The notes beneath the pieces are model-generated. The model saw only the letters and a program-made list of their open reading frames with translations. It was not told the DNA's origin and made no database searches. Positions 22,894-24,603 of a stretch of 27,939 bases of DNA are shown piece after piece. Source of the stretch: a virus; IMG/VR virus record IMGVR_UViG_3300006802_000421, positions 1 to 27,939 of that record. One strand, given 5' to 3'. The translations under genes were made by a program, and so were the position numbers. Each line of letters begins with the position of its first letter. Within the stretch, counting starts at the first letter, position 1.

Positions 22894-23198
22894 GATTCGC
22901 CACCCGCGACGGCAGCGTCACTCCTGAGGAGGGTCTCAAGACCGCCTACGAGCTGTTTCGCGACGGCCGCCCAAAGGAGGCGGCCATGATGTTTCTCGTC
23001 TACGCCGATCCCGACGACATCGGCGTGGTCGGCGAGAGCGAGTACACCGCCCTGGCCAAGCACCTGACCGAGATCATGGCGAACGTCGCGATCTTCAACA
23101 TGCTCTGCGACGAGCAAGTGCAGCCGTTGCTCGATGAGAACGGCGAGCCGGCTTACAAAACCTCGCCCTGGTACGACGAGGACTACAGCCCCAGCTGA
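22884..23198 (+). CDS. small unknown protein, helical
   Basis: 104 residues from ATG 22884. ATG 22890 is as likely because it makes an ATGA overlap with the thyX stop. Helical acidic protein (SVTPEEGLKTAYELFRDGRP, then YTALAKHLTEIMANVAIFNM), Tyr/Asp-rich end. No membrane or metal motif. Its 3' end overlaps the convergent integrase gene by 16 bases. It may act with thyX, but nothing in the sequence says how. Confidence 0.65.
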   Translation: MGMRFATRDGSVTPEEGLKTAYELFRDGRPKEAAMMFLVYADPDDIGVVGESEYTALAKHLTEIMANVAIFNMLCDEQVQPLLDENGEPAYKTSPWYDEDYSPS

Positions 23199-24289
23199 TC
23201 AGCAACTGCTCCAGCCATCGCCTGCGCCCCATCCTCGAGCAGGTGAGCGTAACGGCTGGTTGTGAGCGGACTGGCGTGGCCGAGCAGGCTGCCGACTTGC
23301 GGCAGCGTCAGTCCGACTTTGGTGATCGCCACCGATGCCCAGTGATGCCGCAGGTCGTGCACCTTGAGGCCCTTGATGCCGGCTAGTCGCATCAGTTCCT
23401 CCCACAGCTTCTGATACCCGACTAGGTGGCCGTCGCCGTCCCCTGCGATAATCCACTGTGTATTGGATTTGAGACGCAGTTCTCGCAAGATGAGAATTCC
23501 TGCAGGAGGAATATGCACTACGCGCTCGTGGCCAACCTTCTCGCCGGTCTTATGACTGTCCGGCGGGATCACCATCAGCCCTGCATGCTCGTTGACCCAT
23601 TCCCATCTGCCACGGCAGATCTCGCCCACGCGGCAGCCCGTCAGCATCAGCAGCCGTACCAGCTGCGCAAAGCGCCAGCGCAGTGGCGTCGTGGCTATCG
23701 CATCCAGTGCAGCCACCAGCCGCTGCCGCTCTTCGTTTGACAGGTAACGCCGCCGCTTGCGCTCGGTGTTGCTTGGCACCTTGGCGCAGGGGTTGTCGGC
23801 CCGCATGCCCCACAGGATTGCCAGGTTGAACGCCTTGCGGAGCACCGCCAGCGTCCGGTTGGCCTGGATCGGCCGAATGCGGGAGAGCAGCCGCATTACA
23901 TCGGCGCTGGTGACCGTCTGCACCTTGTGGCGGCCGAGCGCCGGGATGATGTGGACCGCCCAGATGCTCTGATAGCCCTGCGCTGTGCGCAGCCGGAGCT
24001 TCGGATAGTGCTCGGCGAGCAGGCGCTGGTAGAGGTCGGCCATGTCCGGGCCGCGGCGCAGCTCCTGGCGGGCGCTGGTGGGTGCATGCCCACGTGCCAC
24101 GGCGGCGAGGATCTTGTGCGCCTCCTCGCGGGCCAGGGTGCGGTTGAGGACGTCGGCCCGGCCGATCTTGTGATGCTGCTGCTTGCCGCTCGGCTCGCGG
24201 TAGCGCAGGTACCAAGTTTCGACCCCGCTCGGCAGCACCAGCAGGCCCAGCCCGGTGACCTTGGTGTCGGGCTTCCACTCGCGTTTCAT
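23183..24289 (-). CDS. int: tyrosine site-specific recombinase (phage integrase)
   Basis: 368 residues. ATG 24289 is preferred because GGAGGG lies 4 bases upstream; ATG 24301 adds MEGR. The N-terminal 75 residues form an arm-type DNA-binding domain (LVLPSGVETWYLRYREPSGK), residues about 80-170 a core-binding helical domain, then the catalytic domain. Catalytic set in 368 numbering: R220 (TGCRVGEI), K247, H311 and R314 (HDLRHHWAS), H338 (LGHAS), Y347 (SRYAHL). All are present, so the protein is probably active. It recombines attP with a chromosomal attB. The gene points away from the att region and its start lies beside the first arm-type repeats, suggesting self-regulation. Confidence 0.93.
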   Translation of the reverse strand: MKREWKPDTKVTGLGLLVLPSGVETWYLRYREPSGKQQHHKIGRADVLNRTLAREEAHKILAAVARGHAPTSARQELRRGPDMADLYQRLLAEHYPKLRLRTAQGYQSIWAVHIIPALGRHKVQTVTSADVMRLLSRIRPIQANRTLAVLRKAFNLAILWGMRADNPCAKVPSNTERKRRRYLSNEERQRLVAALDAIATTPLRWRFAQLVRLLMLTGCRVGEICRGRWEWVNEHAGLMVIPPDSHKTGEKVGHERVVHIPPAGILILRELRLKSNTQWIIAGDGDGHLVGYQKLWEELMRLAGIKGLKVHDLRHHWASVAITKVGLTLPQVGSLLGHASPLTTSRYAHLLEDGAQAMAGAVADQLGL

Positions 24290-24300
24290 GCGTCCCTCCA

Positions 24301-24320
24301 TTCGCGCACTATTCGCGCAG
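24301..24320 (+). repeat. 20-bp direct repeat, copy 1 (P-arm, integrase arm-type sites)
   Basis: TTCGCGCACTA followed by TTCGCGCAG, that is, two TTCGCGCA octamers 11 bp apart. Identical over 20 bp to 24508-24527. It lies next to the integrase start. Paired, helically phased sites beside int are the usual look of arm-type binding sites. Confidence 0.8.
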
Positions 24321-24322
24321 AT

Positions 24323-24376
24323 TTGCGCGAATTAGCGGTAAGTTGCGCGAATGGCTCGGAAATTGCAAGCGCGAAT
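24323..24376 (+). promoter_or_regulatory. inverted integrase-site cluster (P-arm continuation)
   Basis: TTGCGCGAAT at 24323-24332 and again at 24343-24352 (20 bp apart, two helical turns), and GCGCGAAT at 24369-24376. These are the reverse complement of the ATTCGCGCA unit of the 20-bp repeats. Together with 24301-24320 there are five sites within 76 bp. They may also be operators for int expression. Confidence 0.6.
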
Positions 24377-24399
24377 ATCAATGTTGAATCATAGGTTTA

Positions 24400-24423
24400 G
24401 TGAGGTATCGTGAAGTTCCGTGA
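24400..24423 (+). promoter_or_regulatory. three GTGA repeats phased at 10 bp, Xis-like
   Basis: GTGA begins at 24400, 24410 and 24420, within TGAGGTATCG / TGAAGTTCCG / TGAGACC. Tandem 10-11-bp repeats between the P arm and the core are where excisionase proteins bind in lambda-type attP. Role inferred from spacing and place. Confidence 0.4.
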
Positions 24424-24436
24424 GACCATAAAAAAC

Positions 24437-24459
24437 GACTTTTAATCAGTTGTTCAGGG
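24437..24459 (+). other. putative attP core, tRNA-Lys(UUU)-like
   Basis: The 23 bp GACTTTTAATC then AGTTGTTCAGGG read like tRNA-Lys positions about 30-52: anticodon loop CTTTTAA, 3' anticodon stem, variable loop, start of the T arm. The homology then ends (CCGGAAATG instead of a TTCGA-type T loop). CGACTTTTAATC (24436-24447) is also present in the phage tRNA-Lys at 24557-24568. The region is AT-rich in a GC-rich genome and is flanked by arm-type repeats on both sides. Confidence 0.6.
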
Positions 24460-24507
24460 CCGGAAATGTGAACGAAAACAAAGGGTTGGCATTAGGCAAA
24501 AACACTG

Positions 24508-24527
24508 TTCGCGCACTATTCGCGCAG
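24508..24527 (+). repeat. 20-bp direct repeat, copy 2 (P'-arm)
   Basis: Perfect copy of 24301-24320, 207 bp away, on the other side of the core candidate. It ends 2 bases before the tRNA gene, so integrase bound here would lie on the tRNA promoter region. Confidence 0.8.
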
Positions 24528-24529
24528 TC

Positions 24530-24603
24530 GGGCCCATAGCTCAACGGTAGAGCAGTCGACTTTTAATCGATTTATCCGAGTTCGATTCTCGGTGGGCCTA
24601 CCA
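24530..24603 (+). tRNA. tRNA-Lys(UUU), complete with CCA
   Basis: All arms fold: acceptor GGGCCCA / TGGGCCT (first pair G-U), D stem GCTC/GAGC with a 7-base loop AACGGTA, anticodon stem GTCGA/TCGAT, loop CTTTTAA with anticodon TTT at 24562-24564, variable TTAT, T stem CCGAG/CTCGG with loop TTCGATT, discriminator A73 (as expected for Lys), CCA encoded. It is full-length and looks functional, though the acceptor and anticodon stems each have a G-U pair. Sequence after the anticodon differs from the attP-like core, which would stop the integrase from using it as a target. Probably phage-borne, since phage-type genes lie on both sides. Confidence 0.92.

Follow-up and report, generated by a model that had tools for sequence, protein, structure and literature searches.

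Results

A complete tRNA-Lys gene adjoins the integrase and attP of a cyanophage-like contig

The window, meaning the whole stretch of DNA analysed here, is a virus record of 27,939 bp with genes for tail, tape-measure and endolysin proteins on the + strand. Its 1207-aa tail protein had phage matches only in Microcystis phage Mic1 and Synechococcus phage S-LBS1, the top matches of its endolysin were Synechococcus phages (42–49% identity), and matches to its tail-fibre DNA were confined to Synechococcus phages. Because these three sequences resemble those of cyanophages, the host is likely cyanobacterial, probably Synechococcus-like, and the window is an apparent cyanophage-like contig. S-LBS1, an integrase-bearing freshwater phage with a proposed att motif in protein-coding genes (PMC6157547), was examined as a candidate close relative and set aside, because its integrase lies in a different context and its record lists no tRNA.

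A tyrosine integrase of the lambda type (372 aa; arm-binding, core-binding and catalytic domains) is encoded at 23183–24301 on the − strand. Pfam assigned PF00589 (E 1.2e-16) and PF13356, Arm-DNA-bind_3 (E 2.6e-12), and the match to the PHROG 1 integrase had an E of 1.6e-56. Two arm-type integrase sites follow on the + strand, the P arm at 24301–24320 and the P′ arm at 24508–24527, both reading TTCGCGCACTATTCGCGCAG. They are exact 20-bp direct repeats, confirming the arm repeats that a sequence-only reading of the window had described around a tRNA-Lys-like stretch. Extra copies of GCGCGAAT occur near the P arm at 24325–24332, 24345–24352 and 24369–24376.

Between the arms, 24436–24451 (+) corresponds to the anticodon arm of tRNA-Lys(UUU), as recognized by similarity to the tRNA 3′ halves of relatives, and forms the putative attP core. 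The sequence CGACTTTTAATC is present twice, in this core (24436–24447) and within a complete tRNA-Lys (24557–24568). The core loop CTTTTAA (24439–24445) and its flanking TC are invariant across all Lys cores, and the loop is the probable crossover region. This attP lacks a T arm, acceptor stem and CCA beyond 24451; the slot that holds the remainder of the tRNA 3′ half in 48 relatives (24452–24507, +) is degenerate and truncated, and the distance from loop to P′ arm is ~42 bp shorter than in the attPs of those relatives.

The core had earlier been read as 23 bp (24437–24459). The stretch is as was described, but its exact run against the tRNA-Lys 3′ half (GACTTTTAATCAGTAGGTCGTGGG...) of four relatives (L003, L010, L078 and L109) is 14 bp, at 24437–24450, with partial agreement over the other 9 bp. 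Since, in addition, the tail past the anticodon stem is not conserved among the other relatives that lack a 3′ half, we put the working attP core at ~12–15 bp. With attPs that retain a 3′ half standing in for the host tRNA-Lys, runs rightward from the loop start were 9 or 12 bp in Lys members lacking it and 20 bp in the one member with a different isotype, L106. The exact 24-bp core had zero matches in viral contigs.

The complete tRNA-Lys(UUU), CCA included, occupies 24530–24603 (+), with its anticodon at 24562–24564. It was the single tRNA called by ARAGORN in the whole window, as tRNA-Lys(TTT), in agreement with the full gene noticed earlier, and it scored 71 bits against Rfam RF00005 (cut-off 29 bits; E 1.5e-17). 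The suggestion that this tRNA had diverged to escape the integrase finds no support, since it retains the 12-bp core.

Loss of the tRNA 3′ half coincides with an adjoining tRNA of the same isotype

We gathered 66 distinct attP regions from IMG/VR through the integrase or the arm motif, blind to tRNA content. Pairs of arm sites were kept across the 66; 60 were in the usual (forward) orientation and six had the tRNA 3′ half inverted relative to int. A complete tRNA 3′ half through CCA was present in 48 of the 60 forward attPs (repair type; tRNA-Lys, -Phe(GAA), -fMet(CAT), -Thr(TGT) and -Asn(GTT)), and no repair-type attP (0/48) had an adjoining tRNA gene. The 3′ half was missing from 12/60 (replacement type), 11 with Lys cores, including the window, and one with an initiator fMet core (L106). 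In all 12, a full tRNA sharing the isotype of the core started 4–10 bp past the distal arm, on the same strand as the core. The 2 × 2 table of 3′-half loss against adjoining tRNA is 12/0/0/48, with no exceptions, among attPs that are related by descent and so do not constitute 60 independent observations. Because the same arrangement was found again in 11 relatives, the layout of the window is more than chance. This coupling, with the independent fMet case, bears out the proposal first made from the window alone that a core unable to rebuild its gene is accompanied by a replacement tRNA. L106 pairs an initiator-Met core with an initiator-type tRNA-Met; the carried isotype follows the isotype of the core.

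The stems of the 11 phage tRNA-Lys genes form standard pairs in 99.6% of cells, as compared with ≤47% in shifted registers, and 12 of the 21 stem pairs are changed on both sides. None of 500 shuffles attained the observed pairing or covariation score. Because the stems co-vary, the sequences indicate that the carried tRNAs are under selection as tRNAs. Type-1 replacement tRNAs retain a wobble pair, G1-U72, at their acceptor end (24530 and 24599 in the window) in 7/7 phages. A common stretch of ~57 bp (TTGTTCGTACTTTACGAACACGTCCGTATTTTTTACGGGCACGTCCG) follows the type-2 and type-3 tRNA cassettes (L002, L004 and L008) and is absent after the window tRNA. Searches with the carried-tRNA sequences revealed no additional members of the window's integrase/attP family.

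We consider it very probable that the window holds a tRNA-dependent lysogeny module, lysogeny itself being deduced from the layout of the locus. The integrase would recombine the short anticodon-loop core of attP with a matching stretch in the host tRNA-Lys(UUU) gene, the presumed attB. The host gene would be split with neither junction encoding a working tRNA-Lys, because the attP of the window no longer holds the tRNA 3′ half. Integration would thus probably destroy a tRNA gene essential to the host; the complete phage-borne tRNA-Lys(UUU) would substitute for it, and integration lacking the carried tRNA would be predicted to be lethal.

The carried tRNA-Lys might alternatively serve lytic growth, boosting translation or replacing tRNA-Lys cut by a PrrC-like anticodon nuclease, with attP merely a convenient insertion site. 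PrrC does act on tRNA-Lys(UUU) (PMC10865867), and the carried tRNA is Lys in 11/12 cases. This role is nevertheless quite unlikely: the isotype tracks that of the core, as in L106, and a tRNA accompanies attP if, and only if, its 3′ half has been lost (12/12 versus 0/48). Furthermore, the carried tRNAs were the only tRNA genes in the fetched integrase surroundings of replacement members (up to 21 kb), and a simple consensus search turned up no promoter able to drive them in the free phage. Over the same fetched span, repair-type relatives had no tRNA gene except one tRNA-Leu in L163.

Most idealized replacement-type junctions yield no tRNA

The phage side of each core was joined to an idealized 5′ half, with anticodon and acceptor strands chosen for best pairing, and examined with ARAGORN. 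A tRNA was obtained from 48/48 repair-type attPs and from 1/12 replacement-type attPs, the exception being a marginal call in L006; the window gave none. The L006 call is the observation that favours the view that the carried tRNA is helpful yet unneeded for lysogeny, either because further tRNA-Lys(UUU) genes exist in the host or because the junction itself yields a usable tRNA. That view is very unlikely, given that the other 11 replacement attPs, including the window, yield no tRNA even with an idealized 5′ half and that repeated keeping of a tRNA alongside a truncated core implies need. The tRNA sets of picocyanobacteria are also small and largely single-copy.

A genome scan with the integrase profile, in which no cyanobacterial genome was covered, returned only distant integrases (≤36%), mostly proteobacterial, and no host or prophage. 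Among single-arm viral contigs inspected as candidate attL or attR, none had a host tRNA half joined to phage DNA; several were phages that seem to have lost int, and the others were chance matches in unrelated contigs or attPs interrupted by the end of the contig. Full tRNA-Lys genes of host-like appearance were sought by pattern; none had the AGCGCTCACCA end of repair cores, the nearest being L214, which ends in TGCGCTCACCA.

The identical 47-nt tRNA-Lys 3′ half of L003 and L010 occurs in ten viral contigs (L242, L243, L248, L252, L257, L270, L286, L290, L293 and L297) that lack the arm and core surroundings of the family. Because ten contigs without those surroundings share it, one tRNA-Lys gene seems to be a common integration site for several kinds of phage. 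Records of phages and plasmids with similarity to the 47-mer of the repair type were, among the matches listed, ≤95% alike, and none was cyanobacterial. Three repair-type tRNA-Lys 3′ halves (L074, L079 and L143) have non-canonical T loops, reading GGATCGTACC or GGGTCAGAAC and not GGTTCRANNC, yet their stems pair. L364–L369, with integrases ~50% identical, have a conserved GGCGAAGAACC and no obvious tRNA upstream of int where the core would be. In Aeromonas phage ST4 (L299, 2472–2544) and Achromobacter phage Mano (L300, 2473–2547) an annotated complete tRNA-Lys lies directly upstream of the integrase, possibly with attP inside the whole phage-borne tRNA.

attP lengths change in steps close to helical turns

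Nearly all forward attPs had 137–139 bp between loop and proximal arm. The distance from the loop to the distal arm, with the arm itself included, was 88–89 bp in replacement-type attPs, as compared with 110, 120–121 or 130–132 bp in the repair type, the distal steps being near 2, 3 and 4 turns of the helix. On the other side, L200 and the inverted attPs showed additional steps of ~1 and ~2 turns. Arm-to-arm length in forward attPs was accordingly quantized at 226–228, 248, 258–259, 268–270 and 280 bp, approximately one helical turn per step; examples are the window (24301–24526), L003, L060, L102 and L200. When five offsets were drawn at random in a simulation, ~5e-5 of draws matched the observed phasing, a figure that is suggestive only because the five states were picked after being seen. 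These lengths fit an intasome in which an inserted 3′ half would be tolerated only if helical phase is preserved.

Cores inverted relative to int (Arg-TCT, Gly-CCC and Thr-TGT) were seen in L072, L081, L083, L095, L097 and L179, and also in L176; in these members it is the proximal arm distance that is longer. For L072 and L081 ARAGORN reports a whole tRNA, with a doubtful 5′ half.

That the truncated core is a decayed, inactive att site in a now-lytic phage, with the tRNA a leftover, is extremely unlikely: no prophage of the window's integrase family was found in the genome scan (no cyanobacterial genome covered) or the single-arm viral contigs, which favours decay, but separate replacement lineages have kept the arm sites and the invariant loop, their spacing of 226–228 bp and an integrase that is intact, and compensatory changes keep the tRNA stems paired.

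Repair and replacement have interchanged repeatedly

The integrase tree required at least five changes between repair and replacement, all forced by well-supported branches. Sister integrases include L003 (repair) with L005 (replacement), L124 with L102, and L106 with L058. The carried tRNA accompanied loss of the 3′ half in 5/5 independent pairs (sign test, 0.0625; five pairs are too few to reach p < 0.05). The integrases of the window and L002 are 96% alike, and their tRNA-Lys genes are of two different types, which reappear in L124 and L146, replacement lineages that are distant from both. That close integrases hold different tRNA types that recur in distant lineages suggests that tRNA cassettes are exchanged at one spot.

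Discussion

Expression of the carried tRNA

If the window is a tRNA-dependent lysogeny module, integration would place the carried tRNA ~92 bp downstream of the crossover, oriented with the transcription of the broken host gene. The distance from loop to tRNA start is 92–98 bp, on the same strand, in 12/12 replacement attPs, and a simple consensus search found no sigma-70-like promoter between loop and tRNA in any of the 12. Most likely, transcription from the host tRNA promoter would cross the dead 5′ half and then the P′ arm before reaching the replacement tRNA, and that tRNA would be processed normally. Such promoter capture is favoured because the tRNA is on the same strand, no promoter was found, and the host promoter would be upstream after integration; its odds are about even, a weak or non-canonical promoter being an alternative. 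More tentatively, and at a strength somewhat below that balance, integration may turn on a silent or weak tRNA through the promoter of the gene it destroys, in a family that toggles between repair and replacement by swapping segments of whole helical turns, even for an initiator tRNA.

Comparison with known systems

tRNA-dependent lysogeny has been described for the actinobacteriophages Fionnbharth (K4) and Cain (K6), cluster L and Gaia (X) (Guerrero-Bustamante and Hatfull 2024, PMC10865867), and was demonstrated genetically in mycobacteriophages; replacement-mode attP cores are 8–17 bp there, and the close relatives Boilgate and Ximenita rebuild the host tRNA instead (PMC10865867). The window family has in common with these phages a lambda-like tyrosine integrase, a short core matching part of a tRNA gene, a host tRNA that would not be rebuilt, a carried cognate tRNA (there often also tRNA-Lys(UUU)) and relatives that either rebuild or replace. 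It differs in the place of the tRNA, fixed just past the P′ arm and on the same strand as the core; in Fionnbharth the tRNA overlaps a protein gene and is served by a strong promoter of its own. It differs also in including an initiator tRNA-fMet, which Table 2 of PMC10865867 does not list among its replacement cases. The mycobacteriophage system is proven by genetics, whereas the window family is known from sequence in apparent cyanophages.

Integration that restores the tRNA is known at tRNA-Leu in T7-like cyanophages (PMC8776855). The 48 restoring relatives share the integrase family, the anticodon-loop core and the arm sites of the window; unlike them, its attP has no 3′ half, and restoration of the gene would be impossible. 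Prophage Lj965 of Lactobacillus johnsonii and prophages of S. meliloti, as they are cited in PMC10865867 and PMC11476347, replace the host tRNA. By those citing accounts, there too a tRNA gene is broken on integration and its cognate tRNA arrives with the element; the hosts are different, and those elements are known from integrated copies, whereas the window is known from the attP form only.

Implications for lysogeny in cyanophages

The mechanism is thus already known from actinobacteriophages (2024); what is new is its probable occurrence in apparent cyanophages, the initiator-tRNA case, the fixed place of the tRNA past the P′ arm and how many paired attPs could be compared. The literature searched contained no account of a cyanophage with tRNA-dependent lysogeny. 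Lysogens are predicted at split tRNA-Lys and tRNA-fMet genes, and host tRNA-Lys(UUU) genes would contain GACTTTTAATCAGT if our reading is true. Intact prophages have been reported missing from marine picocyanobacterial isolates (PMC8776855). Prophage finders using long direct repeats may miss lysogens of the predicted kind, because attL and attR would share only ~12–15 bp. The 60 forward attPs with their 12 replacement types would constitute a natural experiment on how restoring and replacing modes interconvert, a question left open by PMC10865867.
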